DNA from: a virus
DNA length: 45,778 nucleotides
IMG/VR virus record: IMGVR_UViG_3300034066_002030
Span: 1 to 45,778 of that record
Strand: one strand, 5' to 3'
Shown here: in pieces, positions 1-13,138 of the stretch
Layout of the letters: each line of letters opens with the position of its first letter
Numbering within the stretch: the first letter of the stretch is position 1
Program-made: the position numbers and the translations under genes
The notes under the pieces: generated by a model
Database searches by the model: none
Seen by the model: only the letters and a program-made list of their open reading frames with translations
Told to the model about the DNA's origin: nothing

Positions 1-471
1 TATTTTTATTCTGGAGCATATGGTGGAGGGCAATACTCTTGTAGGTATCTCCACTCTAAACAATCATTCACTGCTTACGGAACAGATCTAAAACTTTACG
101 ATGAGGAAACTGAAATGACTGCTGACGCTAAAACTCTCTATTCTTTCACTGTTGATGGTGTGGTTGCCTATGGTACCCACATTGGCACCAACAGTAGCAA
201 CCAATATCTGATTGAAGAAAAAGGTACTGGTAAGATTCATGTCTTTGATAAGAAAGATCTGGAAGAAGTTGTACCTTATACTTTTAGTGCCACTATGGGT
301 GGTAAAGAAACCCATTATGTTGGTACTCCTGGTGCTCTGAACAAAGGTGATGTGCTACTCTACACTGGTTCCAGCACTCCTCAAGTTGCCGTGGTAACTG
401 GTGTGGATACAAAAAACAAAAGTGCCCGATCCAAGTTCAAGGGTGCTAAAATCGTAACTGAGGCAATCTGA
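1..471 (+). CDS. 5'-truncated hypothetical protein
   Basis: The frame is open from the first base of the window, so this is probably the 3' part of a longer gene. It starts inside a Tyr/Gly-rich stretch (FYSGAYGGGQYSC) and continues through an internal Met at position 115. That Met has a weak GAGG upstream and could be a separate start. The C-terminal half is rich in Gly, Thr and Val and looks like a small beta domain ending in a basic tail (KNKSARSKFKGAK). Its TGA overlaps the ATG of the next gene, which suggests translational coupling. I do not recognise a family. Confidence 0.7.
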   Translation, partial: YFYSGAYGGGQYSCRYLHSKQSFTAYGTDLKLYDEETEMTADAKTLYSFTVDGVVAYGTHIGTNSSNQYLIEEKGTGKIHVFDKKDLEEVVPYTFSATMGGKETHYVGTPGALNKGDVLLYTGSSTPQVAVVTGVDTKNKSARSKFKGAKIVTEAI

Positions 472-662
472 TGAAAACTACTACTGCTATTGGTGTTACT
501 TTTGGTGTAATTGTTCTTGTTGTTGCTGGACTTCTTTTTGAAGCGTGGTTGCTTGGTTTGATTCTATCTTGGTTTGGTGTTAATTTTACGATCTGGCAAA
601 CTTTTGCTATGGTCTTTCTTGCTAACCTTATTTTCAAAAATACTGGAGTATCTTCTAAATGA
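471..662 (+). CDS. small membrane protein, 63 aa
   Basis: The ATG overlaps the upstream TGA (TGATG). The product has two hydrophobic segments, residues about 5-32 and 40-57, separated by a short loop around GVNFTIW, so it is predicted to be a double-spanning membrane protein. It overlaps the following SPFH-like gene by 4 nt and heads a run of four tiny membrane or near-membrane genes that overlap one another. The function is unknown, but tight coupling with the SPFH-like gene suggests they act together. Confidence 0.7.
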   Translation: MKTTTAIGVTFGVIVLVVAGLLFEAWLLGLILSWFGVNFTIWQTFAMVFLANLIFKNTGVSSK

Positions 663-1066
663 AACAACAAAACGGATTTATTGACCCCGCTGCTATTCTG
701 TTTATTGGTGGCATCTTTGTGATTGGTGGTCTCATCTTCATTGGTGGTCCTCAATACAACGTATGGCAACAATCTCTTGCAGGTAAAGCAGAACTGCAGA
801 AAGCAGAATATACTCGTCAGGTAGCAGTTCTTGAAGCACAAGCAAAGAAAGATTCTGCACAACAACTTGCTGATGCTGAAATCATCCGTGCTCAAGGTGT
901 TGCCAAGGCAAACCAAATCATTGGTAATTCACTGAAAGATAATCGTGAGTATCTTCAGTATCTGTATATCACGGGCATTGAAGATGGTAGCAAGAATGGT
1001 AATGTGACGATCTATGTTCCTACCGAAGGTGGTATGCCTGTTCCTACACTTCAAATGAACAAATGA
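659..1066 (+). CDS. SPFH/band-7-like membrane-anchored protein
   Basis: This is a 135-aa protein with an N-terminal hydrophobic anchor (residues about 11-30, rich in Ile and Gly). A long charged helix follows (about 40-90, with KAELQKAEYTRQVAVLEAQA and then ADAEIIRAQGVAKANQIIG). The Ala/Glu-rich helix with A-x-A-N-x-I-I-G followed by YLQYLYITGIED resembles the C-terminal half of prohibitin/band-7 proteins. The usual N-terminal band-7 beta domain is missing, so this is a minimal version. It probably oligomerises at the membrane. The family call is inferred from the pattern and the role is unknown. It overlaps both neighbours by 4 nt. Confidence 0.65.
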   Translation: MKQQNGFIDPAAILFIGGIFVIGGLIFIGGPQYNVWQQSLAGKAELQKAEYTRQVAVLEAQAKKDSAQQLADAEIIRAQGVAKANQIIGNSLKDNREYLQYLYITGIEDGSKNGNVTIYVPTEGGMPVPTLQMNK

Positions 1067-1197
1067 ACAAAAAGCACATTGTCGCTGGATTGATTAGTCT
1101 TGCAGTCATTCTTGGTTGGAATATGTTTCTAATCCAGCGTGATGATTCTCTCCATAAAGCGTATTATCGCCAACAAGCAGTTCAACAAATGAAATGA
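1063..1197 (+). CDS. small single-pass membrane protein, 44 aa
   Basis: The ATG overlaps the upstream TGA as ATGA. The N-terminus is MNKKHIVAGLISLAVILGW, a positively charged start followed by one hydrophobic helix, then a short polar tail ending QQAVQQMK. It could be an uncleaved anchor or a signal peptide. It belongs to the overlapping membrane-protein run and ends in another ATGA overlap with the next gene. No family recognised. Confidence 0.6.
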   Translation: MNKKHIVAGLISLAVILGWNMFLIQRDDSLHKAYYRQQAVQQMK

Positions 1198-1319
1198 GCT
1201 TAGGAATTGCTTTTGCAATCTACACTACACTGGTTGCATTTGTATCGTCCATTATGATATATTACTTCAAGGTAATGTATCCTACTGAAGAAGCACAACT
1301 TAAGGAGAAATCCAAATGA
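1194..1319 (+). CDS. small membrane protein, 41 aa
   Basis: It starts in an ATGA overlap with the previous stop. Residues about 3-24 form one hydrophobic helix, followed by a short acidic and basic tail (EEAQLKEKSK). A strong ribosome-binding sequence for the next gene (AAGGAGA) lies inside its last codons, and the stop again overlaps the next ATG. Its size and context match the neighbouring membrane genes. Function unknown. Confidence 0.6.
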   Translation: MSLGIAFAIYTTLVAFVSSIMIYYFKVMYPTEEAQLKEKSK

Positions 1320-1453
1320 TCCCCAAACAACTCCGCGACCTTATTAAACAAGCAGAAATGGACAAAGTAGCAGAAGAGTTCTGGAAAGAAGTTGAACGCG
1401 AAGCAGCAAAAATGGAAGTGACTGTTGACTATTATCTTGCAGAGTTTTATTGA
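1316..1453 (+). CDS. hypothetical protein, 45 aa, with VTxDYYLxEF C-terminus
   Basis: A charged helical peptide (KVAEEFWKEVEREAAKM) followed by the C-terminal motif VTVDYYLAEFY. The same arrangement (helix, then VTIDYFLDEF) occurs in the 46-aa product at 13724-13864, so the two are probably small paralogues. Translation is supported by AAGGAGA 7-8 nt before the ATG and by the ATGA overlap with the upstream gene. Its last codons overlap the -35 box of a sigma70 promoter for the next gene. Function unknown. Confidence 0.65.
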   Translation: MIPKQLRDLIKQAEMDKVAEEFWKEVEREAAKMEVTVDYYLAEFY

Positions 1454-1478
1454 CAAACTGCAATCTTAAACTTATACT
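1450..1478 (+). promoter_or_regulatory. sigma70-type early promoter
   Basis: A perfect -35 TTGACA (1450-1455), a 17-nt spacer and -10 TATACT (1473-1478). The -35 overlaps the stop of the upstream gene. The first gene downstream starts at 1502, leaving a short leader. Consistent with transcription by unmodified host RNA polymerase early in infection. Confidence 0.75.
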
Positions 1479-1501
1479 AAAGGACTAATTTACAAATACA
1501 A

Positions 1502-1741
1502 ATGGCACAAAAGTTTCTTTATATCGTTGATCACTTTTGCAACTTTCCCCGTTCAGAATATGGAGGAGTTTGGAACGTGATTGCAGAAGATGACGATGAA
1601 TGTTTTGATTTGATTAAAGATTATGATGAGGGATTCAATGAAGAGTTTTATGTAAATCTTCGGGAAAAAGTAGTTAATGCAAGAACTTATGCTCTTGCTG
1701 AAGATGTAGAATCTGCTGTAGTTGAATCCTTTACGACCTGA
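1502..1741 (+). CDS. conserved cyanophage-type hypothetical protein, 79 aa
   Basis: The product begins KFLYIVDHFCNFPRSEYGG, followed by an acidic DDDECFDLIKDYDEG section and an AxxYALAEDVESAVVESF helix. I recall similar small proteins in T4-like cyanophages, without a known function. The start is the ATG about 23 nt after the TATACT box of the upstream promoter. The TGA overlaps the next ATG (TGATG). Confidence 0.75.
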   Translation: MAQKFLYIVDHFCNFPRSEYGGVWNVIAEDDDECFDLIKDYDEGFNEEFYVNLREKVVNARTYALAEDVESAVVESFTT

Positions 1742-1908
1742 TGACTCACAACGTTGCTCACACTAATAAAATAGTGTTTGATTTAAAGACACGGTATCAA
1801 GAACGCATTGAACAACTGCAAAATAAAATTGCAGAACAAGAACACGAAATCTCACAACTGCAGAAGCAAATTGAGTATATGTCGCGAGATAAGTTCTATG
1901 ACTGTTGA
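1741..1908 (+). CDS. small coiled-coil protein, 55 aa
   Basis: From about residue 15 to 48 the sequence shows heptad spacing of Leu and Ile (YQERIEQLQNKIAEQEHEI and onward), so a coiled coil is very likely. It starts in a TGATG overlap and overlaps the next gene by 11 nt. It could be an oligomerising partner or adaptor. No family recognised. Confidence 0.65.
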   Translation: MTHNVAHTNKIVFDLKTRYQERIEQLQNKIAEQEHEISQLQKQIEYMSRDKFYDC

Positions 1909-2188
1909 AGTTCCACTTCTTCCTTATTCTCCTCCTGAAGGATACTATTATGAGTATGAAGAGTTCAAGCGAAATGTTGTCAGTATTTGGTTATGCAACA
2001 CTCGCAAGTTTGTCTATAATGGCGGTGCTCCAACCAGGACTATACACTCCTTCTACAATACAAAAACCAGAGAATACTTCTCCCCCATCAATAGTAAGTC
2101 CATCGGTGCTCGTGTAAATATCAAGGAAACGCGAAACTACACTACGATGCCTATCAAACAGTCTCCATTGGATGCGTTTTTTGTTTAG
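1898..2188 (+). CDS. conserved cyanophage-type hypothetical protein, 96 aa
   Basis: The N-terminus MTVEVPLLPYSPPEGYYYEY and the section RNVVSIWLCNTRKFVYNGG resemble a conserved T4-like cyanophage protein as I remember it. It is rich in aromatic residues and probably a compact beta-rich fold. The frame is open upstream to 1808, but the 1898 ATG matches the remembered N-terminus and limits the overlap with the preceding coiled-coil gene. Function unknown. Confidence 0.75.
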   Translation: MTVEVPLLPYSPPEGYYYEYEEFKRNVVSIWLCNTRKFVYNGGAPTRTIHSFYNTKTREYFSPINSKSIGARVNIKETRNYTTMPIKQSPLDAFFV

Positions 2189-2190
2189 AT

Positions 2191-2454
2191 ATGGATTACA
2201 CTCCAAGAGTCAACGACTATGTAAAATGGACTAAAGGTGTTGAGGGTTGGGTTTATTTCAAGTGCGAAGAATACATCACTATTGAATACAATGTTCGCCC
2301 CAAAGATGAACTCAACTATCGTGCTTGTTCTATTCACGCAAATGAAAGATTGCTTGTAATTTGTTATAATAATCAATGGAAACAGTTGGAGTATGTTAAA
2401 TCAAGACAATCAAAATATGAAGAAGAACAAAACTGTCTGGCGACTGCTTGCTAA
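2191..2454 (+). CDS. conserved cyanophage-type hypothetical protein, 87 aa
   Basis: The product opens MDYTPRVNDYVKWTKGVEGW and contains ACSIHANERLLVIC. The D-Y-V-K-W-x-x-G-V-E-G-W pattern resembles a small SH3/KOW-like beta barrel, but this is only a fold guess. It starts two nt after the previous stop. The C-terminal 20 codons overlap the next ORF. Confidence 0.7.
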   Translation: MDYTPRVNDYVKWTKGVEGWVYFKCEEYITIEYNVRPKDELNYRACSIHANERLLVICYNNQWKQLEYVKSRQSKYEEEQNCLATAC

Positions 2455-2683
2455 GGCACTTGGAGAGAAAGCAAGTAAATGTGATAAAGAAGCGGATAAG
2501 GTAGCACTTATCCGCCTTTTGATGTTTCTATCCATTCTTATTACTAACTGTTTCATTGTAGCAAATGCAATCCGTCATTGGAATGATGAGACTAAAATAG
2601 AAGTATATGTTGAAACTTCCACAATTCCAGAATATAAAACTCCACCTATGAAAGTATCAAATAGAACGCTGGAGTTTGAGTGA
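2393..2683 (+). CDS. small membrane protein, up to 96 aa
   Basis: A basic N-terminal section (MKKNKTVWRLLAKALGEKAS) precedes one hydrophobic helix (about residues 42-60, LLMFLSILITNCFIVANAI) and a polar tail. The 2393 ATG has TTGGAG just upstream. The internal Met at 2417 would also give a plausible protein and reduce the overlap with the previous gene. Probably an inner-membrane protein; function unknown. Confidence 0.65.
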   Translation: MLNQDNQNMKKNKTVWRLLAKALGEKASKCDKEADKVALIRLLMFLSILITNCFIVANAIRHWNDETKIEVYVETSTIPEYKTPPMKVSNRTLEFE

Positions 2684-2685
2684 AA

Positions 2686-2692
2686 CTAAATA
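2686..2692 (+). promoter_or_regulatory. possible late promoter (CTAAATA)
   Basis: CTAAATA lies 19 nt before the ATG of the internal-protein candidate at 2711. It differs by one base from the ATAAATA core seen before the baseplate genes. The same variant precedes the second candidate at 3749. Weak by itself; the shared position supports it. Confidence 0.4.
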
Positions 2693-2710
2693 TTCAAAAG
2701 TACAAGTAAG

Positions 2711-3124
2711 ATGCTAACATTCAGAGAGTTCTATCAAATCTGTGAAGGTAAGAAACCTGACACCCCACCACACGCAGTTCCTGGAACTTACAAGAGAGAT
2801 GATGATGGTACTATCTCTTATACTCTTCAGAAATATGATGGTCCATTAGGTAAACCAAAGAAGAAAGAGATTGATAAGTTAGTTGTAAAGCGTAGTGGTG
2901 GAAAGGCAGTAACAAATAGATTGAAAAAGTTAGCAAAATCAGTTAATAAAATCTCTGAGGATTTGGAGCAACGAAGACAAGATCTTCGCCAGAGACAACT
3001 GAAGCAAGTTGCGACACAAAAACAAAAGGTTGCTGACTATCAAGCATCTCAAAGAGAAAAACAAAAAGTATCTGCAGAAAGAGAAAACCTGAAGAAAGAA
3101 ATCAAGAGAGAGTTGCAGAATTAA
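2711..3124 (+). CDS. basic coiled-coil protein with capsid-targeting-like N-terminus
   Basis: A 137-aa lysine- and arginine-rich protein. The N-terminus MLTFREFYQICEGK resembles the T4 capsid-targeting sequence (MKTYQEFIAEA) of internal head proteins. I-C-E|G at residues 10-13 fits the T4 prohead protease rule (L/I-x-E), so cleavage there is plausible. The C-terminal half (about 75-137) is a long charged coiled coil. The role as a DNA-associated protein packaged in the head is an inference; charge and N-terminus support it, and position among early genes argues against it. The final Asn codon and TAA lie in repeat copy 1. Confidence 0.65.
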   Translation: MLTFREFYQICEGKKPDTPPHAVPGTYKRDDDGTISYTLQKYDGPLGKPKKKEIDKLVVKRSGGKAVTNRLKKLAKSVNKISEDLEQRRQDLRQRQLKQVATQKQKVADYQASQREKQKVSAERENLKKEIKRELQN

Positions 3125-3154
3125 AATTACTCACCTCTAAAGTGGACCTATAAT
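3121..3154 (+). promoter_or_regulatory. 34-bp promoter repeat, copy 1
   Basis: First copy of the repeat: ACTCACCTCT, then GTGGACC, then a perfect -10 TATAAT. It supplies the last Asn codon base and the TAA of the upstream gene. No ATG abuts the -10; the next gene starts 19 nt later at 3173, as expected for a normal promoter with a short leader. It differs from the consensus by AAAATT in place of AAAGTT. Confidence 0.8.
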
Positions 3155-3172
3155 GTAAGCACGAAACAAGTT

Positions 3173-3325
3173 ATGGATTGCTTTGACGACATTCAAATCG
3201 AAGAGTTTTCTTCTTTTGATTTTGTTGAGGAAATGAATGAAGGTCTCTTTGATGAAGATGAAGAAGGTGAGCAACCTTCAAAGTTTAATTTGAATGAATA
3301 CATTAACGGTAACTACGATTATTGA
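3173..3325 (+). CDS. small very acidic protein, 50 aa
   Basis: The product is dominated by Asp, Glu, Phe and Asn (MDCFDDIQIEEFSSFDFVEE, then LFDEDEEGEQP). It is the first gene after repeat copy 1 and has a leader of about 18 nt after the -10 box. Very acidic small phage proteins can mimic DNA or bind host factors, but nothing here proves that. It ends immediately before the next ATG. Confidence 0.65.
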   Translation: MDCFDDIQIEEFSSFDFVEEMNEGLFDEDEEGEQPSKFNLNEYINGNYDY

Positions 3326-3327
3326 TT

Positions 3328-3516
3328 ATGAATCTTGATACTTACACTTTCACCGGTGATGCTGTTACCTTCATTGGTTTGGTTGGTGTTATCTCAGCGT
3401 TTATTATTGTTTCTACTGCTTTTCGCAGGTTTTTCAATTCTCCTTACAATGTTCGTGTGACGCCTAAACAAGTGTCTACTCAAACCTCTATTGACTCTGA
3501 TTCTACTGTATCCTGA
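3328..3516 (+). CDS. small membrane protein, 62 aa
   Basis: One hydrophobic helix (about residues 13-31, VTFIGLVGVISAFIIVSTA) is followed by a basic FRRFFNSPYNVRV section and a Ser/Thr-rich tail. I chose the ATG at 3328 rather than the upstream TTG because it follows the previous stop by two nt. The helix followed by Arg residues predicts N-out/C-in topology. Function unknown. Confidence 0.65.
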   Translation: MNLDTYTFTGDAVTFIGLVGVISAFIIVSTAFRRFFNSPYNVRVTPKQVSTQTSIDSDSTVS

Positions 3517-3520
3517 ACAA

Positions 3521-3721
3521 ATGACTGAACAAATCCCTAACGTGCTGCCTCACATTCGTGACCTTAAAGATGCTTGGAGGCGTCAAGATTTCAAGTTTAC
3601 CAAGCAACAACAAGAAGAATATGATCTCTTGCTTGCTACTCGTCGTGAACGTGTGAAACAATTTTATGCCGAAGGTCGTGTATTCAAAGGTGCTTACAAA
3701 GCAAAGGAAGATGACATCTAA
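3521..3721 (+). CDS. hypothetical protein, 66 aa, conserved cyanophage type
   Basis: A charged helical protein with the section DAWRRQDFKFTKQQQEEYD and then RRERVKQFYAEGRVFKG. The pattern resembles a small T4-like cyanophage protein that I remember as unannotated. The ATG at 3521 is preferred over the upstream TTG. The TAA overlaps a CTAAATA motif that may serve the next gene. Confidence 0.65.
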   Translation: MTEQIPNVLPHIRDLKDAWRRQDFKFTKQQQEEYDLLLATRRERVKQFYAEGRVFKGAYKAKEDDI

Positions 3722-3724
3722 ATA
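3718..3724 (+). promoter_or_regulatory. possible late promoter (CTAAATA)
   Basis: CTAAATA overlaps the TAA stop of the preceding gene and lies 25 nt before the ATG at 3749. That is the same spacing range as the ATAAATA motifs before gp25 and gp8. It would give late expression of the candidate internal head protein. Confidence 0.45.
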
Positions 3725-3748
3725 CTAAAAAGTAGTGTTTAGATACCA

Positions 3749-4438
3749 ATGAAAACATTTCAGGAGTTTATGTCTTTTTGTGAAGAAGTTGAAGACAAGT
3801 CCAAAGTATTAGGATTTGCTGCAACTATCAGACGTGCTCAGGCGGGCGGTAGAGTTCGCCCTGAGCGTAAGAAGACAACTCCTGAAATACGTCGAATGAG
3901 AGCAGTTGGTGGGGGTAAAATGGAACCCGTTAGTAGTTACAAACCACGCAAAGATATTGGAACTCAACGCCAAGCATCTACAAGAGTTCAGCAACCAGAA
4001 CAAGAACGTGGATCTGCTGATGTAAAAGCAAAAGCAGCAGCAGCAGCAAAAGAAGAAAGAAAGAAAGCAGCACTTGCTAGAATTGCTGCAAAGAAAGGAG
4101 GTGCAAAACCCGAAGCAGAAAAACCAAAGGCAAGAGATGTTGAGAAGCAAGCAAGTAAACTTCTTTCCACAAAGAAATCTGAAGCACCAAAACCAACACC
4201 AGCAAAACCACGCAGAAAGTGGGAACATGAAGGTGGTGGTGGTATGACACGTCAGGAAAGAGATCAAGCAAGAAACGCAGAGAAAACATCAGCAGCACAA
4301 AAGACAAAGAAATCTTCTACTGAGATTCTTGCACAAATGCGTAGAGAGTATGAAGAAGGTGGTGGAAAATGGAGCAATGCTGTTGCTGTTCGTATGAGAG
4401 CAAAAGCAAAAGCAGCAGCACAAGCATCAGGAAGTTGA
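3749..4438 (+). CDS. Ala/Lys-rich basic protein with capsid-targeting-like N-terminus
   Basis: A 229-aa protein with many Lys, Arg and Ala residues and low-complexity runs (VKAKAAAAAKEERKKAALAR). The N-terminus MKTFQEFMSFCEEVE is close to the T4 capsid-targeting sequence MKTYQEFIAEA of internal proteins IPI-IPIII. The rest is mostly disordered or helical and histone-like, suited to binding DNA. I infer a protein packaged with DNA in the head and trimmed by the prohead protease. T4 scaffold and internal proteins are expressed late, and a CTAAATA motif sits 25 nt upstream. The alternative is a non-virion DNA-binding protein. Confidence 0.6.
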   Translation: MKTFQEFMSFCEEVEDKSKVLGFAATIRRAQAGGRVRPERKKTTPEIRRMRAVGGGKMEPVSSYKPRKDIGTQRQASTRVQQPEQERGSADVKAKAAAAAKEERKKAALARIAAKKGGAKPEAEKPKARDVEKQASKLLSTKKSEAPKPTPAKPRRKWEHEGGGGMTRQERDQARNAEKTSAAQKTKKSSTEILAQMRREYEEGGGKWSNAVAVRMRAKAKAAAQASGS

Positions 4439-4444
4439 GTCTAA

Positions 4445-4478
4445 TTAAAGTTACTCACCTCTAAAGTGGACCTATAGT
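4445..4478 (+). promoter_or_regulatory. 34-bp promoter repeat, copy 2
   Basis: ACTCACCTCT / GTGGACC / TATAGT. The upstream gene has already ended (TGA at 4436-4438). The -10 is followed by ATAAGCA, not an ATG, and the gene starts at 4496, 17 nt after the -10. Confidence 0.8.
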
Positions 4479-4495
4479 ATAAGCAAGATTTTTGA

Positions 4496-4729
4496 ATGAA
4501 CTTCACTGTTACTGACAAACCGCAAATCATCAACGGTATTGAGCACACTGTTACTGCAGTCAATGGTTTAGACCGTGTGGAGATTAACAATAAACTGCAT
4601 CACCTTGGCGATCAGATTATGAAACTGCGGATGCAACAAGATGCACTCATTCAGATGCGTAACTTGATTGATCGCCAGAATGAAATGAGTGAAATGAATG
4701 ATCTTTTTGATGAGATGTTCGGCGGTTGA
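4496..4729 (+). CDS. small coiled-coil protein, 77 aa
   Basis: The N-terminal half is beta-like (MNFTVTDKPQIINGIEHTV). The C-terminal half is Met/Gln/Asp-rich and helical with heptad-like Leu and Ile spacing (LGDQIMKLRMQQDALIQMRN), ending MNDLFDEMFGG. It is the only gene between repeat copy 2 and a strong hairpin, so it is a single-gene transcription unit. Function unknown. Confidence 0.7.
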   Translation: MNFTVTDKPQIINGIEHTVTAVNGLDRVEINNKLHHLGDQIMKLRMQQDALIQMRNLIDRQNEMSEMNDLFDEMFGG

Positions 4730-4740
4730 TTAACTACCAC

Positions 4741-4773
4741 TAGCACCCTCTACAGTCCCCTGTAAGGGTGCTA
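4741..4773 (+). terminator. stem-loop, probable terminator
   Basis: A 9-bp stem TAGCACCCT/AGGGTGCTA encloses a second stem TACAG/CTGTA around TCCC, giving a nearly continuous hairpin. The downstream sequence (TTATTGTCTTT) is T-rich but has no long U run. It sits right after a single-gene unit. An ORF reading through it from a GTG at 4768 is not the real start of the next gene. Confidence 0.65.
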
Positions 4774-4806
4774 TTATTGTCTTTAGGTATCAAACTACTT
4801 GAAACT

Positions 4807-5004
4807 ATGAATTGCGTTCAAATTCCCGATTACGTCTTCGATAGCATCATTCAGACTCTTCAACAAGGTGTTGATGTATGCTTGAATGTTGACGGCAGTT
4901 CTGATGAAACTGAAAAGTCTCCCCACTTTGCAAATGGCTACAGTCGTGCTACAATGCAAAATGTGATTCGAGACCTTAAGCGATACGAAAAGAATGGGAA
5001 TTAA
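4807..5004 (+). CDS. hypothetical protein, 65 aa
   Basis: The protein starts MNCVQIPDYVFDSIIQTLQQ and contains a Gly/Asp section (LNVDGSSDETEKSPHFANGY), then a helix (MQNVIRDLKRYEKNGN). I chose the ATG at 4807 because an upstream GTG in frame lies inside the terminator hairpin. The last codon AAT and the TAA stop lie in repeat copy 3. Function unknown. Confidence 0.65.
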   Translation: MNCVQIPDYVFDSIIQTLQQGVDVCLNVDGSSDETEKSPHFANGYSRATMQNVIRDLKRYEKNGN

Positions 5005-5034
5005 AGTTACTCACCTCTAAAGTGGACCTATAAT
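5001..5034 (+). promoter_or_regulatory. 34-bp promoter repeat, copy 3
   Basis: ACTCACCTCT / GTGGACC / perfect -10 TATAAT. It supplies the stop codon of the upstream gene. The -10 is followed by GTAGGTAC, with no ATG; the next ORF opens at a GTG at 5081 after a 46-nt leader. It drives the first nuclease-like/methyltransferase pair. Confidence 0.8.
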
Positions 5035-5080
5035 GTAGGTACACTACCAAACTCAACTCAACTCAATCTTATTATTCAAA

Positions 5081-5716
5081 GTGCAACAAACTTCTTATTC
5101 TGTCTCAAAACCCTATCTTAAAAATCACAAACTTCACAACTTCCAACAATCTCTTGAAAAGGAAAAGCAAATTATTGAAAGAGGCGAACATCTTTCTGTT
5201 ATTCACCAACTAAATGTTGAACTGGAGAGTAAGTTTGGTTTGTCTATAGATTATGATAGTTTTGAAGATAACTATGGAAAAGATAATCTTTCTCAATTCA
5301 AAAATAAAGCAGGAGTTGATTGTACCTTTGATCTGGTTGAGTTCAAATCAAAAGTAGTAAAGCGTAAGGGATTTACTTTAGACTACAAGTTCAGGGATAA
5401 AAATCTGTACTATGATGATTTTCTAGCAGAAATTGTAAGTCAAGATTTTGGACCTTATTCTAACAAAATGCCTGTTCCTGGTTGGGCAGTCTGTAATCAC
5501 AAAATCAATGATGCTATTCTTTACATTCTCCCATATCACAAAAAAGCAGCATTGATTATGCGTAAAGAATTGAAATCTGGATTTGAAAAAAATAAATTTC
5601 CAATGAGAAATCACAAGTATGCAAAAAACAATGGATGGACTACAATTAGTGTTCCTGTTAGTTGGGATCGCCTAATTAAAGTATGTCCAAGTACAATTAT
5701 ATTCAACTATGAGTAA
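5081..5716 (+). CDS. putative PD-(D/E)XK-type endonuclease
   Basis: A 211-aa protein opening with GTG. A central block (GVDCTFDLVEF, then GFTLDYKFRDK) is followed by DDFLAEIVSQ, VPGWAV, then INDAILYILPYHK, and ends with a VPVSWDRL strand. This order of D, D-x-K, an 'L-E-I-V-S' helix and 'P-G-W' resembles predicted phage endonucleases of the PD-(D/E)XK fold as I remember them. The likely catalytic residues are Asp in VDCTFD and DYK. The gene overlaps the next gene, a DNA methyltransferase, by 8 nt, which supports a restriction-modification-like pair. The call is inferred, and a replication or repair role is possible. Confidence 0.45.
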   Translation: MQQTSYSVSKPYLKNHKLHNFQQSLEKEKQIIERGEHLSVIHQLNVELESKFGLSIDYDSFEDNYGKDNLSQFKNKAGVDCTFDLVEFKSKVVKRKGFTLDYKFRDKNLYYDDFLAEIVSQDFGPYSNKMPVPGWAVCNHKINDAILYILPYHKKAALIMRKELKSGFEKNKFPMRNHKYAKNNGWTTISVPVSWDRLIKVCPSTIIFNYE

Positions 5717-6380
5717 TGTAAAACTTTATAACGACGATTGTATGAACGTGCTCCCTTCACTTGCTGATGGGAGCATTTCACTTACGCTCACTGATATACC
5801 ATATGATGAGGTAAATCGTAAGAGTGGTGGTTTAAGAAATCTTGATAAAAGTTACGCAGATATTATTACATTCCCACTTGATAATTTCATTGATGAAATT
5901 GTCAGAGTGACATCTGGAAGCATTTATATTTTTTGTGGATCAGTTCAAGTCTCACACATTCGCAATAGATTGATCGAACAAGGTTTATCTGTACGGCATT
6001 GTGTCTGGGAAAAAACAAATCCTTCCCCAATGAATGGGCAGCACATATGGTTATCCAGCATAGAAAACTGTGTATTCGCAAAGAAGTCTGGGGCAACGTT
6101 TAACGAGCATTGTAAATCTGCAGTTTGGCGTTGTGCGACTGAAAGATACAAAGATCATCCCACACCAAAACCAGTCAAACTAATGTCCAGATTGATTGAA
6201 GCAAGTTCAAACCCAGGAGACATAGTTCTAGATCCTTGTATGGGTAGCGGTGCTATTGGTGTTGCTGCTAAACAATGCGGCAGAAACTTTATCGGAATAG
6301 AGCTAAACAAGGAATATTTTGATTTAACAAAAAACCGCATAAACAGTCAAACCGAAAGTATTTTATCTTTCATCAATTAA
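5709..6380 (+). CDS. DNA methyltransferase, N4-cytosine/N6-adenine type (beta class)
   Basis: A 223-aa amino-methyltransferase. The catalytic motif IV is DIPY (residues 29-32), a DPPY variant. The conserved HPTPKPVKL lies at 150-158, and the AdoMet-binding motif I DPCMGSGAIG at 175-184 is followed by GIELN. Motif IV before motif I is the beta-class order. It adds a methyl group to adenine N6 or cytosine N4 in duplex DNA; the specificity cannot be read here, as no target-recognition domain is evident at this size. It overlaps a nuclease-like gene. The final Asn codon and TAA are supplied by repeat copy 4. Confidence 0.88.
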   Translation: MSNVKLYNDDCMNVLPSLADGSISLTLTDIPYDEVNRKSGGLRNLDKSYADIITFPLDNFIDEIVRVTSGSIYIFCGSVQVSHIRNRLIEQGLSVRHCVWEKTNPSPMNGQHIWLSSIENCVFAKKSGATFNEHCKSAVWRCATERYKDHPTPKPVKLMSRLIEASSNPGDIVLDPCMGSGAIGVAAKQCGRNFIGIELNKEYFDLTKNRINSQTESILSFIN

Positions 6381-6410
6381 AGTTACTCACCTCTAAAGTG
6401 GACCTATATT
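6377..6410 (+). promoter_or_regulatory. 34-bp promoter repeat, copy 4
   Basis: ACTCACCTCT / GTGGACC / TATATT. It supplies the last Asn base and TAA of the methyltransferase. The ATG of the helicase ORF abuts the -10 directly (TATATTATG). It is the first copy in the window with this ATG-fused arrangement. Confidence 0.8.
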
Positions 6411-7658
6411 ATGAGCACAACTTCAATGCAAATCCAACTCCGTCCGCATCAAGAACGTGGCGTTGTTGCTATGCAAAAGCACAACAAAGGTCAAATTATT
6501 GTTCCGACTGGCGGAGGTAAGACTCTGAAGATGATCTATGATGCTCTGCGTGAGTTACAGTCACAAACTCCACAGACTATTGTAGTGGTTGCTCCTCGTA
6601 TTTTGCTGGCAGAGCAACTCTCTGCAGAGTTTCTTGAGTTCATCACCAACGCAAAGGTTTTCCACGTTCACAGTGGTGAAACTCATCACGAGTCTTCTAC
6701 TCGCCCGCGTGAGATTCGCAACTGGGTTGATGCTAATGTTGACAATCACAAACTGATTGTAACCACCTACAACTCTCTATCGCGTCTTCAAGTTGCAGAA
6801 GTTGATGTGGATACGATCTATTTTGATGAGGCACATAACAGCGTTCAGCGTCACTTCTTCCCTGCAACTGAACACTTTGCTGCTACTGCACGTCGCTGCT
6901 ACTTCTTTACTGCAACTCCCAAACATTCTCTGGCAGTAGGCAAACCTGGGATGAATGATGCTGCTGTTTATGGTCAGGTAATCTGTAAAGTTCCTGCTCC
7001 TGAGTTGGTTGAAGGTGGTTACATTGTGCCCCCTAAAGTTATCGTCAAGCAACTTGCGATGGTAACTGGCAAGCAGACTAACTTCGATCGTGATGCTGAG
7101 AATCTGCTGGAAACGATTGATGAGAACCAAGTCGGCAAGATCTTGATCTGTGCTAAGGCAACCAAGCAAATTGTGTCGCTGGTGACTGAAACTGACTTCT
7201 GCTTTCAACTAGAGCAACGTGGTTTCTCTTGGATGTATATCACTGCCAAGACTGGCGCTGTGATCGATGGTCAGAAGGTCAACCGTGAGGTATTCTTCGA
7301 CACTCTATCTGCATGGGGCAAAGACAACGACAAGAAGTTTGTTGTGCTACACCACAGTATCCTCGCTGAGGGTATCAATGTGAGCGGTCTGGAAGCAGTG
7401 CTGTTCCTGCGTAATATGGACTTCATTGGTATCAGTCAGACCATCGGACGTTGCATCCGTTTGCATCACGATGATGCCAAAGGTATGCGCGATGGACGTA
7501 TCGAACCTGGCAACCTGAGTCAGTATAGCAAATCGTTCGGTCTGGTTTGTATTCCTGTCTACAGCAAGGTAGGTATTGCTACTGCTCGTGCAGTTCAGTC
7601 GGTTGTTGATACTATCTTCGAGAAGGGAGAACCTGCTATCAGCACGGTGAGGCGGTGA
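6411..7658 (+). CDS. superfamily 2 DEAD/DEAH helicase
   Basis: A 415-aa ATP-dependent helicase with a Q-motif-like start (LRPHQERGV), Walker A VPTGGGKT (31-38), DEAH (139-142), motif III TATP (167-170), and motif VI QTIGRCIR (343-350) after a second RecA-like domain. This is the ResIII/UvsW-like type, which remodels branched DNA or unwinds duplexes. T4 UvsW has an additional N-terminal domain that is absent here, so I do not use the uvsW name. The ATG abuts the repeat -10; a second Met at 6426 just before IQLRPHQ could be the real start. It ends inside a hairpin (7656-7675). Confidence 0.88.
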   Translation: MSTTSMQIQLRPHQERGVVAMQKHNKGQIIVPTGGGKTLKMIYDALRELQSQTPQTIVVVAPRILLAEQLSAEFLEFITNAKVFHVHSGETHHESSTRPREIRNWVDANVDNHKLIVTTYNSLSRLQVAEVDVDTIYFDEAHNSVQRHFFPATEHFAATARRCYFFTATPKHSLAVGKPGMNDAAVYGQVICKVPAPELVEGGYIVPPKVIVKQLAMVTGKQTNFDRDAENLLETIDENQVGKILICAKATKQIVSLVTETDFCFQLEQRGFSWMYITAKTGAVIDGQKVNREVFFDTLSAWGKDNDKKFVVLHHSILAEGINVSGLEAVLFLRNMDFIGISQTIGRCIRLHHDDAKGMRDGRIEPGNLSQYSKSFGLVCIPVYSKVGIATARAVQSVVDTIFEKGEPAISTVRR

Positions 7659-7675
7659 GTCTCACCTGAGACTCA
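7656..7675 (+). terminator. perfect 8-bp hairpin overlapping the helicase stop
   Basis: TGAGTCTC-ACCT-GAGACTCA, a perfect inverted repeat with a 4-nt loop. The TGA stop of the helicase forms its first three bases. No T-run follows, but a true intrinsic terminator lies 8 nt downstream. The same hairpin core (AGTCTC-ACCT-GAGACT) recurs at 13976-13991. Confidence 0.6.
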
Positions 7676-7683
7676 AGTGCTGG

Positions 7684-7708
7684 TCGGGGTCAAAACCCCG
7701 ATTTTTTT
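7684..7708 (+). terminator. rho-independent terminator
   Basis: TCGGGGT-CAAA-ACCCCGA followed by seven T. A classic GC-rich stem with a U tail just after the helicase gene. Confidence 0.9.
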
Positions 7709-7776
7709 GCAATTCTACCTGGAGGGTGTCATAGGTCATCCACCGCAACAAAATTAACGATTTTTTAGAAAGTATA

Positions 7777-7956
7777 ATGACTGAAGGTTTCTTGGTTTCT
7801 GGTGGACTTTATGCGGCAGTTCCTTTCGGAAAGTCTCAATTAATGATCATTCACAATGGACAACAACTCAAACTGTGCAGGACTGAAGCATCGGCAAGGA
7901 AGTTCATTGATGCTCATAAAAAGGGTAAGTCACTGGGCAAACTTCCCATCAATTAA
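7777..7956 (+). CDS. hypothetical protein, 59 aa
   Basis: The product is MTEGFLVSGGLYAAVPFGKS followed by LMIIHNGQQLKLCRTEASAR and a basic tail KKGKSLGKLPIN. It is a small, probably beta-beta-alpha, basic protein. The last Asn codon and TAA are in repeat copy 5. It follows the terminator at 7684-7708 with no clear promoter; a TATAAT overlaps its start (TATAATG, 7773-7778) without a matching -35. Function unknown. Confidence 0.6.
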   Translation: MTEGFLVSGGLYAAVPFGKSQLMIIHNGQQLKLCRTEASARKFIDAHKKGKSLGKLPIN

Positions 7957-7986
7957 AGTTACTCACCTCCAAAGTGGACCTATAGT
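7953..7986 (+). promoter_or_regulatory. 34-bp promoter repeat, copy 5
   Basis: ACTCACCTCC / GTGGACC / TATAGT. It supplies the stop of the upstream gene. The -10 is followed by GTAGTCACC; the next gene starts at 8005, so this copy is not ATG-fused. The first copy with CTCC rather than CTCT. Confidence 0.8.
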
Positions 7987-8004
7987 GTAGTCACCCATTC
8001 CTGA

Positions 8005-8280
8005 ATGACTTTCTACTGGAAGTTCGTTGATACTCTCGTCCACAACATTGCTACTATTAGTGCTATTGTTGTTGGTGTGGTTCAGTTCTTCATTCGTTCT
8101 TTCAATGAGAACAATGGTCGTGAAAAAGTTCGTGTTGCAATGCTTCAATTCCTGAAGTTTGTTGATACACTGATTGAGTTCGGTAAAGCACAACTTTCTC
8201 CTGCTGAAGTAGTGGAGCAACCTCAAGTTGTATCTGCTTTTGATACTGTTACCAAAATCCGCAAGCGTCGTTCCGCTTGA
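8005..8280 (+). CDS. membrane-associated hypothetical protein, 91 aa
   Basis: A hydrophobic segment (residues about 13-31, HNIATISAIVVGVVQFFI) is followed by an amphipathic section (REKVRVAMLQFLKFVDTLIE) and a basic C-terminus (KIRKRRSA). Similar small proteins occur in cyanobacterial phages as far as I recall. It starts 18 nt after the TATAGT box. A hairpin follows it. Confidence 0.65.
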   Translation: MTFYWKFVDTLVHNIATISAIVVGVVQFFIRSFNENNGREKVRVAMLQFLKFVDTLIEFGKAQLSPAEVVEQPQVVSAFDTVTKIRKRRSA

Positions 8281-8293
8281 TAAACTGTCACAA

Positions 8294-8325
8294 GAGCACT
8301 TGTAATTTAGCAGGTGCTCCTTTAT
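8294..8325 (+). terminator. weak terminator-like hairpin
   Basis: GAGCAC and GTGCTC form a 6-bp stem with a 14-nt loop, followed by CTTTATT. Less convincing than the terminators at 7684 and 20484, but it sits right after a gene end. Confidence 0.5.
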
Positions 8326-8349
8326 TGTACTCTTGTTCTTAAAACTCCA

Positions 8350-8553
8350 ATGATTTTTCTCACTGTTCCTGGTCACGGTTGTGTCTACACTCTGTCGCAA
8401 GAAGATGGTGATGAGTTGTATTATGCGCCCATTTATGCTGACGGTAATGTAAATCTTGAGGAGTTTGCTCCTGTAGATTTAGACAGTGCAGATATGGATG
8501 AAATGGAACTCTTTGATGTTCGCAATCGTCTACAGAAACTGATGGAAGTTTGA
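8350..8553 (+). CDS. acidic hypothetical protein, 67 aa
   Basis: The protein MIFLTVPGHGCVYTLSQEDG continues through YYAPIYADGNVNLEEF and an Asp/Glu-rich tail with the helix DVRNRLQKLMEV. I selected the ATG at 8350 because an in-frame GTG at 8314 is inside the hairpin. It is probably a small beta domain with a helical tail. Function unknown. Confidence 0.65.
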   Translation: MIFLTVPGHGCVYTLSQEDGDELYYAPIYADGNVNLEEFAPVDLDSADMDEMELFDVRNRLQKLMEV

Positions 8554-8558
8554 CCTAA

Positions 8559-8592
8559 TTAAAGTTACTCACCTCCAAAGTGGACCTATAGT
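8559..8592 (+). promoter_or_regulatory. 34-bp promoter repeat, copy 6
   Basis: ACTCACCTCC / GTGGACC / TATAGT, directly followed by the ATG of the 299-aa KxDG protein. The start cannot be moved downstream here, since the conserved-looking HLEH section begins at residue 5. This makes it a key test of how ATG-fused copies are translated. Confidence 0.8.
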
Positions 8593-9492
8593 ATGAAGAA
8601 CACCCACCTAGAACATCCTGAAGATAGTATTCTCACTGGGGATCTATCTGTGCTTGATTGGTTCTCCGAACCTGATAGTTCGATCAGTGTCAAGATAGAT
8701 GGTGCTCCTGCTATAGTTTTTGGCACTGATCCCGAAACTGGTAAGTTTTTTGTGGGCACCAAGTCGGTATTCAACAAGAAAAAGATCAAGGTTAATTACA
8801 GTGTTGAAGACATATTGCACAATCACGGTCACACTGTTCGCGTTGCAGAGATTCTTATTGCCTGCCTCGACAATCTGCCCAGAATTGATGGTATCGTACA
8901 AGGTGACTTCATCGGATATGGTGGGAACGACACTTATTGCCCCAACACTATCACTTACAAGTTTCCGAATTGTGTAGAAGAAGCAATTATCTTTGCTCCT
9001 CACACTACCTATTCTGGTCTCAATCTGCGTGAATGTGTTGCATCATTTGGTGTAGATGTTCCCAACTGTGAGAATGTGAAATGGGTGCAACCTGCAGTTG
9101 AACTGAATCCTTATCGTGAGGATCTGGAGGATGTGTGTAACTTTGCCAAGCAAATGAGCACTCTGTGTGAGTTTGTGTCTGATCGCAAGGCATCACAAAT
9201 CAAAAAAGAGATCAATGCCTGCATCCGCGAGCAAAGGGTCATTGATGAGGATGAAATTGCAGAAAAATGTGATTGTGACAAATACCTGATCTCTTTGTGG
9301 AAGTTGGTGAAGACAATCAAGGACGATTTGTTCCTGTTCATTCACGAAGAGGACGACATCGAATGTTCTATCGACGGCATTGATTCCTTCCACGAAGGTT
9401 ATGTCATTCACAACAAGTTTGGATCCTACAAAGTAGTTGATCGTGAGACATTCTCTCACGCAAACTTCACAATGGCAAAGAGTTGGAGTTGA
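8593..9492 (+). CDS. nucleotidyltransferase/ligase-like protein (DUF6267 type)
   Basis: A 299-aa protein. The opening HLEHPEDSILTG and the block VKIDGAPAIVFG (residues 33-44) match a T4-like phage family that I recall as DUF6267. KIDG resembles the K-x-D-G nucleotidylation motif of ATP-dependent ligases, GDFIGYG (about 104-110) resembles motif III, and EGYVIHNK with SYKVV near 268-281 resembles motifs IV and V. If active, Lys34 would be AMP-modified. A ligase or other nucleotidyltransferase activity is inferred from the motifs only. It is a single-gene unit between repeat copies 6 and 7. Confidence 0.65.
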   Translation: MKNTHLEHPEDSILTGDLSVLDWFSEPDSSISVKIDGAPAIVFGTDPETGKFFVGTKSVFNKKKIKVNYSVEDILHNHGHTVRVAEILIACLDNLPRIDGIVQGDFIGYGGNDTYCPNTITYKFPNCVEEAIIFAPHTTYSGLNLRECVASFGVDVPNCENVKWVQPAVELNPYREDLEDVCNFAKQMSTLCEFVSDRKASQIKKEINACIREQRVIDEDEIAEKCDCDKYLISLWKLVKTIKDDLFLFIHEEDDIECSIDGIDSFHEGYVIHNKFGSYKVVDRETFSHANFTMAKSWS

Positions 9493-9526
9493 TTAAAGTT
9501 ACTCACCTCCAAAGTGGACCTATAGT
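9493..9526 (+). promoter_or_regulatory. 34-bp promoter repeat, copy 7
   Basis: ACTCACCTCC / GTGGACC / TATAGT. It begins immediately after the TGA of the upstream gene. The -10 is followed by ATAACCACTG, not ATG; the next start is at 9545. It drives the second nuclease/methyltransferase pair. Confidence 0.8.
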
Positions 9527-9544
9527 ATAACCACTGAGAAATCA

Positions 9545-10042
9545 ATGACTCCTGAACAGAAATTTCAAGAACTTTTCGAGCAAATGTATCAACTTTGTGA
9601 AGAACAAGGTTGGGGAGATCCATTCTCCTATGCTCGCTCCCGTGAGATTCATCTTGCTGGTATTCTTGGACATAAAGTAGCAGAAACCTATTCGGGTGCT
9701 GACGCTGTTGATGAAGATGGAGAATGTGAGTATAAATCTACCATTGCAAAATCTATCAATGGGACTTATAATGGTATCAGTGTTCAAGATACTTGGGAAG
9801 AGCAGGAGCGTTATCTGATTGAGGAGAAACTTGGTAAATACTCTAACCACTATATTGCCCGATATGATGGTGGCAAAGTGGTGGAAGTGTGGAAACTCAC
9901 TGGTAACGATGTGCTGATGGTTCTCCTACCCAAACTCAAGAAAGATTGGGAGCGTAAGATTCACGGTAAGCACAAAGATCCCCGTCTCTCTGGTAACCTG
10001 ACCAAGAAAGAAATCCAACAGTTTGGGACTCGTGTTGTATGA
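9545..10042 (+). CDS. putative type II restriction-like endonuclease, PD-(D/E)XK
   Basis: A 165-aa protein with the pattern REIHLAGILGHKVAETYSGAD and then EDGECEYKST. Asp53 followed by E-Y-K (62-64) fits the PD-(D/E)XK catalytic signature D-x(n)-E-x-K. The 'R-E-I-x-L-A-x-x-L-G-H' helix before GAD is typical of small type II restriction enzymes as I remember them. It starts 18 nt after the -10 of repeat copy 7 and overlaps the downstream methyltransferase by 4 nt (ATGA). A restriction or host-DNA degradation role is inferred. Confidence 0.6.
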   Translation: MTPEQKFQELFEQMYQLCEEQGWGDPFSYARSREIHLAGILGHKVAETYSGADAVDEDGECEYKSTIAKSINGTYNGISVQDTWEEQERYLIEEKLGKYSNHYIARYDGGKVVEVWKLTGNDVLMVLLPKLKKDWERKIHGKHKDPRLSGNLTKKEIQQFGTRVV

Positions 10043-10596
10043 CGATTGATAGTGGAAAACTGATGTATTCGGAGGGTAACAATGACGAATGTTACACTCC
10101 GTTTTATGGTGTAACTCCAATCCTTAAATACATTCCCAAAGATGTAAAGGTTTGGTGTCCATTTGATACTGTTGAGAGTGAGTTTGTAAAGCAAATCTCT
10201 CCACATAATACAGTCATTCATACGCACATTTCAACTGGGCAAGACTTTCTCACTTGCATTCCTGACTTTGAGTGGGATGTAATCGTATCCAATCCACCGT
10301 TCACAAACAAGCGTAAGTTCTTTGAGCGAGCACTATCATTTGAGAAACCATTTGCTCTCATTATGACTAACACTTGGTTGAATGATAGTGCTCCCAAGCA
10401 GTTATTCAAGGACAAGGATCTTCAACTGCTAATGTTTGATAAGAGAATGAAGTTTCACAGTCCCGATGGTAGACCAAACGACAAGATTACGTTCAGTTCT
10501 AGCTACTATTGTTGGAACTTTCTACCAAAGCAGATCATTATGGAAGAACTTGTGATCCCCAAGAGTACATCAGAAGCAAAACTACCACTGAATTAA
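10039..10596 (+). CDS. phage adenine-type DNA methyltransferase
   Basis: A 185-aa protein with motif IV SNPPF (84-88) in the context DVIVSNPPFTNKRKFFERAL, and a motif-I-like VWCPFDT (38-44) near the N-terminus. Such PFD...NPPF proteins resemble phage N6-adenine methyltransferases. Compared with beta-class enzymes it is short and has no G-x-G loop, so the activity may be reduced or the fold compact. It overlaps the nuclease-like gene by 4 nt. The last Asn codon and TAA come from repeat copy 8. Confidence 0.7.
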   Translation: MTIDSGKLMYSEGNNDECYTPFYGVTPILKYIPKDVKVWCPFDTVESEFVKQISPHNTVIHTHISTGQDFLTCIPDFEWDVIVSNPPFTNKRKFFERALSFEKPFALIMTNTWLNDSAPKQLFKDKDLQLLMFDKRMKFHSPDGRPNDKITFSSSYYCWNFLPKQIIMEELVIPKSTSEAKLPLN

Positions 10597-10626
10597 AGTT
10601 ACTCACCTCCAAAGTGGACCTATAGT
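10593..10626 (+). promoter_or_regulatory. 34-bp promoter repeat, copy 8
   Basis: ACTCACCTCC / GTGGACC / TATAGT, ATG-fused. It supplies the stop of the methyltransferase and the start of the next ORF. Confidence 0.8.
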
Positions 10627-10824
10627 ATGAGCACTGCACAAAGTCAAATGATTAACCAAATCGCTGAAATGATTGTGGATGCTGCTAATGATCCACGCAC
10701 CGCAGATAACATCCGCGAAATGCACAAACATCCGCAAGGTGCAGAAACTCTGCGACTGATTGTGCGTGATAATGTAGCAGGTGCTGCTGATGTAGTTGCT
10801 AATGCTCTCTGGAACAATCTCTGA
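10627..10824 (+). CDS. small helical protein, 65 aa
   Basis: Starts MSTAQSQMINQIAEMIVDAA; the M-S-T start is derived from the repeat junction and an internal Met at 10648 could also serve. The rest is helical and Ala/Asn-rich (DNVAGAADVVANALWNNL). First of three genes behind repeat copy 8. No family recognised. Confidence 0.6.
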   Translation: MSTAQSQMINQIAEMIVDAANDPRTADNIREMHKHPQGAETLRLIVRDNVAGAADVVANALWNNL

Positions 10825-10843
10825 AACTAAAATCTTTCCACAA

Positions 10844-11080
10844 ATGAGTGACTACCAACAAGGAATCAAAGACCTGACAGTAACACGTTCTCTGCGTCTG
10901 CTGCGTGATGGTTTCAAGAGTGATTTTGCGACCTTTGTATATGCTGACGAACGAATGAATGAACTTTTGGTTCAACTTTCTACGGAGTTTGTTGATGCAA
11001 ACATTCTCGTGGTTGATGAAGAAAATCAGGTAGAACTTGCTCTGATGCTGATGGAATCACTGGACATTATTGCACGATGA
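10844..11080 (+). CDS. hypothetical protein, 78 aa
   Basis: A mostly helical acidic protein (MSDYQQGIKDLTVTRSLRLL, then VELALMLMESLDIIAR). I use the ATG at 10844; the frame is open earlier but overlaps the previous gene. The stop overlaps the next ATG (ATGA). Function unknown. Confidence 0.65.
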   Translation: MSDYQQGIKDLTVTRSLRLLRDGFKSDFATFVYADERMNELLVQLSTEFVDANILVVDEENQVELALMLMESLDIIAR

Positions 11081-11340
11081 CTTACTCTAACCTCTCAAAG
11101 ATTAAACCTAAACTTCGCACTGAAGGTCGTGTATCTGGTAACTTCGGCAAGAGCAAAGTTAAGGCAGGTTCTGCACTGAATGAGATTGGAATGAGCACCA
11201 AAGAAACAATCAAATGTGCAACACAAGATGATTATCTGAATCGTCTTTATTATGCTTTTGATAATACCACGGATGCTAAACTTCGTCAGTTCATTTATAC
11301 AGAAATCCGAAAGATTCACGTTCAAAGAGGAACTTGGTAA
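11077..11340 (+). CDS. basic hypothetical protein, 87 aa
   Basis: The N-terminal third is basic and Gly/Ser-rich (KIKPKLRTEGRVSGNFGKSK). A helical section with DDYLNRLYYAFDNTTDAKLR and QFIYTEIRKIH follows. It starts in an ATGA overlap and ends 7 nt before repeat copy 9. It could bind nucleic acid, judging only from charge. Confidence 0.6.
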   Translation: MTYSNLSKIKPKLRTEGRVSGNFGKSKVKAGSALNEIGMSTKETIKCATQDDYLNRLYYAFDNTTDAKLRQFIYTEIRKIHVQRGTW

Positions 11341-11347
11341 CAAGCAA

Positions 11348-11381
11348 TTAAAGTTACTCACCTCCAAAGTGGACCTATAGT
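11348..11381 (+). promoter_or_regulatory. 34-bp promoter repeat, copy 9
   Basis: ACTCACCTCC / GTGGACC / TATAGT, ATG-fused. The upstream gene ends at 11340, just outside the repeat. Confidence 0.8.
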
Positions 11382-11645
11382 ATGAGAACAACCACTGAAA
11401 CCAAGATGAACACCAACATCGTCTCCGAAATCTACTCCTACCACACCGATTGGAAGGAAGGTAAAGTCAACCAGATGTGGATTGAGCAGTCTGGTGATGA
11501 GAACAAAGGTTATTCCTATGTCGCTGTTGCACACAATCCTCGCAATGGTTCTACAATGGAGATGAGCAATCCTCGCACATCTTACCACGAAACTCTAAAC
11601 TGGGTTCGCGGTTGGTGTGGCACTTTCTGTATTCTTCCTGCTTGA
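11382..11645 (+). CDS. hypothetical protein, 87 aa
   Basis: The first residues MRTTTETK look like repeat-derived sequence; a second Met at 11406 starts MNTNIVSEIYSYHTDWKEGK. The body has a Trp/Tyr-rich beta pattern (NQMWIEQS, YSYVAVAHNP) and ends with HETLNWVRGWCGTFC. No family recognised; the C-terminal WCGTFC has two Cys that might bind metal or form a disulphide. Confidence 0.6.
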   Translation: MRTTTETKMNTNIVSEIYSYHTDWKEGKVNQMWIEQSGDENKGYSYVAVAHNPRNGSTMEMSNPRTSYHETLNWVRGWCGTFCILPA

Positions 11646-11647
11646 TT

Positions 11648-11926: not shown

Positions 11927-11932
11927 TTCATT

Positions 11933-12076: not shown

Positions 12077-12110
12077 TTAAAGTTACTCACCTCCAAAGTG
12101 GACCTATAGT
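12077..12110 (+). promoter_or_regulatory. 34-bp promoter repeat, copy 10
   Basis: ACTCACCTCC / GTGGACC / TATAGT, ATG-fused. The upstream TAA ends at 12076, the base before the repeat. Confidence 0.8.
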
Positions 12111-12281: not shown

Positions 12282-12315
12282 TTCCACCACTACTGACATT
12301 TTTCCCGAACCGATT

Positions 12316-12871: not shown

Positions 12872-12876
12872 ACCAA

Positions 12877-13102: not shown

Positions 13103-13138
13103 TTCTCACTAACTGTTTTCCCACTAAATTACACTGAA

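Follow-up and report, generated by a model that had tools for sequence, protein, structure and literature searches.

Putative late-made internal head proteins with capsid-targeting-like N-termini encoded in a T4-like cyanophage genome fragment

According to the accessible parts of PMC9026906, residues 4 and 7 are the main determinants of targeting by the capsid targeting sequence (CTS) of phage T4, processing depends on residues 8 and 10, and the prohead protease gp21 cleaves after L/I-x-E. The internal proteins (IPs) are highly diverse and share only a conserved CTS (PMC3012670). In the T4 genome record (AF158101), ipII and ipIII start with MKTYQEFIAEA and lie between denV and e, while ipI starts with MKTFKEF and lies beside tRNA genes. 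Cyanophage virion proteomes recurrently contain enzymes without a structural role, and the accessible texts on S-CREM2 and S-SCSM1 do not decide between cargo and carry-over (PMC10665884, PMC9602691); as far as accessible, the S-CREM2 paper does not propose a sorting signal and leaves co-purification possible (PMC10665884). A search of the open-licence literature found no report of a CTS in cyanophages.

The DNA analyzed here (the window) comprises the 45,778 bases of a virus record and, by comparison with relatives, resembles T4-like cyanophages (Kyanoviridae). An original prediction had placed two genes for strongly basic, partly Ala/Lys-rich proteins near its start, and both were verified. 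ORF1 (2711–3124, + strand) encodes 137 amino acids, consisting of a module A (residues 1–83) and a module B (84–137), and ORF2 (3749–4438, + strand) encodes 229 amino acids. Beyond residue 12 the net charges are +16 and +29, respectively; Lys and Arg together make up about 25% of both proteins, and the Ala content of ORF2 is 17%. Comparison with four relatives each revealed purifying selection on both ORFs, with whole-ORF dN/dS values of 0.13–0.37 (0.14–0.37 for ORF2).

Neither body could be assigned to a family. ORF2 had no Pfam match, tblastn of ORF1 against annotated phages yielded none, and searches of the PDB gave no informative match. A Pfam hit of ORF1 to NagJ_C (E 0.005) was below the cut-off of that family and was rejected. 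Residues 67–133 of ORF1 weakly matched the chain sc-apCC-4 (phmmer, E 0.03), which is only an indirect test of the coiled-coil proposed originally. PHROG contained no internal-protein family matching ORF1 or ORF2, and one ORF2 homologue (L036) weakly matched phrog_2667 (E 0.077). Because IPs are highly diverse (PMC3012670), the missing family match was not taken as an exclusion. The AlphaFold2 model of ORF2 has helices at residues 4–20, 89–116, and 168–226 around a long low-confidence middle (pTM 0.27); it is consistent with a flexible DNA-associated protein and is no proof of one.

ORF1 starts with MLTFREFYQICE (2711–2746, + strand) and ORF2 with MKTFQEFMSFCE (3749–3784, + strand). Both have Phe at positions 4 and 7, and residues 10–12 resemble a prohead protease site, I-C-E in ORF1 and F-C-E in ORF2, with predicted cuts after Glu12 (ICE/G and FCE/E, the slash marking the cut). 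The likeness to the T4 CTS, which had been proposed originally, was verified: the pattern M-x-[TSNK]-[FYW]-x-[EDQ]-F fitted only the starts at 2711 and 3749 among 123 ATG starts of the + strand (60 or more amino acids, nested starts counted), and when residues 2–26 were shuffled at every start, two or more matches arose in only 1 of 1000 runs (mean 0.039). Residues M1, T3, F4, F7, and E12 of ORF2 were invariant in 22 homologues. In the 12 CTS codons of ORF1, 3–5 synonymous and 0–1 non-synonymous differences from relatives were found, indicating that the peptide is conserved and not the RNA; the abundant synonymous changes rule out conservation of the tag at the RNA level.

A CTS profile was constructed from positions 2–8 and the protease site, using the 33 body clusters described below. 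It gave scores of 25.4 for ORF1 and 29.7 for ORF2, and of 25.9, 25.9, and 16.2 for T4 ipII, ipIII, and ipI, of which only the T4 scores are independent, because both ORFs and their homologues are part of the profile. The I-C-E site of ORF1 fits the L/I-x-E rule of gp21, whereas ORF2 has Phe at P3 in place of the Leu or Ile of T4; its relatives mostly have Leu or Ile. A gp21 or gp22 gene was not identified in the 45,778-nt fragment, which was inspected without a profile search; the gp21 protease and the gp22 core protein are annotated in S-SM1, S-SZBM1, and S-CREM2.

The sequence upstream of the two genes gives further support. A late motif reported for S-PM2 is NATAAATA (accessible part of PMC2984593). 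The original prediction had reported CTAAATA 19–25 nt upstream of both starts; it is indeed present on the + strand at 2686–2692, ending 18 nt before the ATG of ORF1, and at 3718–3724, ending 24 nt before that of ORF2. These are the only two [CA]TAAATA sites on the + strand of positions 1–17000. CTAAATA occurs five times in the window compared to a mean of 11.2 in shuffled sequences, i.e., it is rarer than expected; on this ground and on that of the reversed-motif control given below, a chance occurrence was rejected. Relatives of ORF2 are encoded in 157 IMG/VR stretches, of which 80 were kept, and the isolates SynMITS9220M01, S-SM2, P-TIM68, and S-B05 have an ORF2 homologue. Among the 79 homologues with 45 nt of upstream sequence, which had been chosen by protein alone, 78 have the late motif, ending 22–27 nt before the ATG; the exception is L078, the match of which begins at query residue 5. 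The motif also precedes 21 of 25 ORF1 homologues, but only 48 of 865 other ORFs of the same loci. CTAAATA followed by a CTS was found in at least 120 IMG/VR stretches, versus 15 with the motif reversed. The homologue-based count is evidence for the promoter; a larger count of 231/256 is not, because its loci were chosen via the promoter.

The motif was also compared with two cyanophage virion proteomes. In S-CREM2, 31 coding sequences have CTAAATA within 45 nt upstream, and 19 of these are among the 52 listed virion proteins (p 1.2e-6); no coding sequence has the reversed motif there. In S-SZBM1, ATAAATA is enriched at virion genes (7/13, p 4.5e-4), and CTAAATA has no association with them (2/9, p 0.36). 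Late expression of ORF1 and ORF2 is predicted, supported by their conserved late-promoter-like motif.

Both genes are directly followed by another recurring element. A 33-nt repeat, TTACTCACCTC[CTG]AAA[GC]TGGACCTATA, is present in 16 copies (up to 9 mismatches) between 3127 and 17944, all on the + strand; none was found on the - strand or beyond the copy at 17,944. It is read as early-promoter-like from its TATAAT-like end. One copy (TTACTCACCTCTAAAGTGGACCTATAATG; 3127–3159, + strand) begins 2 nt past the ORF1 stop codon, another (4451–4483, + strand) 12 nt past that of ORF2. The short gap between CTS gene and repeat recurs in many relatives, and some relatives lack a recognizable repeat. With its own late motif in front and an early-like repeat behind it, each CTS gene has the appearance of an isolated late gene set between early units. 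The location in an early region had been called unexpected: the genes do lie among 16 early-like repeats, yet their position appears less odd given their own late motifs and the parallel of the T4 ip genes. A search of the + strand for terminator-like sites from the 3127 repeat up to ORF2 gave none, and thus early read-through into ORF2 would be possible. In S-SM1, the gene T4-GC 495 occupies the same position before a helicase, and its N-terminus is quite different. Two further genes of the window were noted by eye: the ORF at 5709–6380 looks like a DNA methyltransferase, and the ORF at 8593–9492 resembles DUF6267; a DUF6267 protein of another locus (L231:3573) bears a CTS.

Comparison with relatives indicated that ORF1 is composite. 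Module A (82 amino acids, with its own CTS) stands alone in L011, where it is 70% identical, and module B occurs within a separate 118-residue CTS protein of L008 (66% identity over 61 residues, with the alignment running into the tag). The slot takes the forms A, A+B (the window), A+C, A+B+C, B+C, and C among the relatives, and 23 of 35 distinct module A proteins are longer than 90 amino acids. At the A/B junction, I81-S82-E83 (2951–2959, + strand) may form a second prohead protease site. At 22 located junctions P3 is Ile in 21 cases and Leu in one, and P2 takes at least eight different residues. A Glu at P1 had served to locate the junctions, and 11 of 12 unfused module A forms likewise end in Ile-x; a second cut is therefore put forward as a hypothesis. 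ORF1 thus appears to be a fusion of two modules joined at I-S-E, and the locus an exchangeable cassette between early-promoter-like repeats; both points are new.

The same kind of tag was found on many different bodies. Loci were gathered by homology to ORF1 or ORF2, by the promoter together with residues 1–7, by a reversed-promoter control, and from a small number of annotated phage stretches. They contain 238 distinct, complete CTS ORFs of at least 60 amino acids, 235 of which have a hydrophobic-x-E site with Glu at residue 9–16, mostly at 9, 10, or 12. The P3 residue is Ile in 93, Leu in 68, Phe in 42, Met in 17, Val in 14, and Tyr in one. The 238 ORFs form 33 clusters of mutually non-matching bodies, including ORFs of control loci; 27 clusters have at least one member with a late motif and 6 have none. 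Averaged over the clusters, and counting I, L, M, V, or F at P3, the rate of the site is 0.91 versus 0.03–0.07 at positions 15–50 residues downstream. Since hydrophobic-x-E had not been used to find the ORFs, this signature is independent support.

Several bodies could be named. The 41-member cluster C2 consists of S-adenosylmethionine lyases (Pfam PF23780, one member, E 5e-18); S-CREM2 gp6 has this domain as well. A late motif precedes 40 of the 41 cluster members (L133, L137, L230, and others), and gp6 was detected in virions. Further Pfam-named bodies are a cytidylyltransferase, a GNAT acetyltransferase, DUF6267, and a double-psi beta-barrel. An ADP-ribosyltransferase-like group stayed below the Pfam cut-offs (PARP, E 4e-4; ART-PolyVal, E 0.006–0.012), and a structure model of this cargo was left out (mean pLDDT 41.7); its proteins (L180, L190, L194, L210, L219) carry the tag MKTFQEFIAEA, one residue off that of T4 ipII and ipIII. 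PHROG families of internal head or virion proteins matched some CTS proteins via residues 1 to 14–40 alone (E 0.003–0.08). By eye, a GLxSDGHGxWxD-like stretch after the tag is common to L118:5310, L212:8053, and S-CREM2 gp12 and gp14 (L263), the cargo of which otherwise differs (cytidylyltransferase, Cas9-annotated protein, kinase). The Cas9-annotated gp12 (L263:7704-10313, - strand) has a CTS-like RFASFMAEA about 17 residues in, and its annotated start may be too early.

Virion proteomes of two other cyanophages were compared with the CTS profile. The S-CREM2 list (PMC10665884) comprises 52 proteins, 24 of them structural; gp143, 144, 145, 147, 201, and 203 were added because the genome record annotates them as ‘virion protein’, and the total agrees with the paper. 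At least gp13, 17, 86, 127, and 165 rest on one peptide each. The top four of 219 proteins by profile score (gp136, gp154, gp14, gp6) are all in this list. Among the nine proteins with a score above 0, six are virion proteins (p 0.0065), and with the 24 structural proteins removed it is 5/8 (p 0.0018). All five matches of a regular expression were also listed; this expression had been written after the virion N-termini were known, and thus a fairer test is the profile, for which other sequences were used. In S-SZBM1 (PMC9146016, 30 detected proteins) none of the five proteins scoring above 0 is in the virion list, and the two best candidates, gp192 and gp191, are absent from it; the detected cytidylyltransferase has a shorter tag (MRFRQFIIEA), which the profile missed. 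The S-SM1 cytidylyltransferase (T4-GC 190), listed as detected in virions in the accessible part of PMC3037559, starts with MKKFSAFLNEA. Among 79 IMG/VR relatives identified for a related cytidylyltransferase, 65 start with a CTS pattern; a late motif within 45 nt is missing throughout, indicating that the tag is not always paired with its own late promoter.

The best explanation, which we hold with good confidence, is that ORF1 and ORF2 encode internal head proteins that a T4-like cyanophage makes late in infection and that would be loaded by a CTS, trimmed, and probably injected. Comparison supports this through the N-terminal tag, the late motif, the protease site signature, and the presence of other tagged proteins in virions; the idea of head-packaged proteins, as originally put forward, gains support from the CTS profile, the protease signature, the late motif, and the S-CREM2 list, which favour capsid targeting, a predicted trimming by the prohead protease, and probable late expression. 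We infer docking on the core, cleavage, injection, and function. Despite their site among early genes, both genes would be transcribed late from the CTAAATA promoters; the first 12 residues would act as the CTS and dock the proteins on the prohead core, and a gp21-type protease would then cut after Glu12. The strongly basic mature proteins would remain beside the DNA inside the head, probably follow it into the cell, and act on DNA or host defence. Candidate roles are shielding the injected DNA, countering a host nuclease as IPI does (PMC3012670), or helping to build the head.

That last role leads to a rather unlikely alternative, in which the proteins are components of the prohead core, as proposed for T4 IPIII and for gp67/gp68, and assemble the core without delivering an effector. 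Targeting and processing would be common to both readings, and only the purpose would differ. Small, basic, partly helical proteins, as in the ORF2 model, would suit a core role, and the multi-module ORF1 with its internal I-x-E is reminiscent of core proteins from which gp21 produces several pieces (accessible part of PMC9026906). However, the slot content varies among relatives, unlike conserved assembly parts, and a motif scan of S-SM1 gave no ORF of this kind. It is improbable that the proteins are instead made early for DNA binding or host takeover and stay unpackaged, with a CTS likeness due to chance or common ancestry. The 16 early-promoter-like repeats around them and the possible read-through into ORF2 point that way, but the ORF2 homologues nearly all have a late motif of their own, the protease site is conserved, and chance is unlikely. 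A tail or other structural role is more improbable still. It was suggested by a match of ORF2 to PHROG 10574, a tail length tape measure family (E 0.003); this weak match covers a stretch rich in Ala and Lys, and the CTS pattern fits no tail protein of the S-CREM2 or S-SZBM1 virion lists. For ORF2 a tail role was rejected.

Beyond the preferred reading of ORF1 and ORF2 as internal head proteins, the relatives compared suggest that the tag serves many such viruses as a means of bringing in proteins together with their DNA. It is tempting to speculate, as a tentative joint reading, that in marine T4-like phages a portable, usually late-promoted tag of 9–12 residues could be a general loader for injected cargo (SAM lyases, ADP-ribosyltransferase-like proteins, acetyltransferases, nucleotidyltransferases, and small basic proteins), that the window could hold an exchangeable cargo slot between early promoters, and that ORF1 could be a two-protein polyprotein cut twice (ICE/G and ISE/D). 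The readable N-terminal tag would then give a simple rule to tell which proteins a virion brings in and delivers, and it would connect abundant phages of the sea with T4, one internal protein of which is a known counter-defence.

The closest described systems can be set against the locus as follows. With T4 IPI, IPII, and IPIII the window proteins share an aromatic residue 4 and Phe 7 (MKTYQEF and MKTFKEF in T4, MKTFQEF and MLTFREF in the window), a site ending in Glu that closes the tag, genes located among non-head genes, and a small and basic nature (for T4, accessible part of PMC9026906). They differ in that the window tag has 12 residues versus 10 in IPII and IPIII and up to 19 among T4 IPs (same source), that the bodies are without a family match, with ORF1 being modular and possibly cut a second time, and that the genes immediately precede an early-promoter-like repeat. 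The SAM hydrolase gp6, the kinase gp14, the cytidylyltransferase gp154, gp13, and gp136 of S-CREM2 are CTS-like and, in the accessible part of PMC10665884, virion-associated by mass spectrometry; N-termini such as MKDFDSFLEE, VKRFDAFLTE, and MKNFSSFLTE follow the logic of ORF1 and ORF2, although the proteins are mostly enzymes rather than small basic proteins. The polymorphic internal-protein genes of the T-even phages (Repoila et al., 1994, cited in the accessible parts of PMC9026906 and PMC3012670) likewise combine varying genes with a common tag, whereas the slot of the window lies between early-promoter-like repeats and varies also by fusion of modules.
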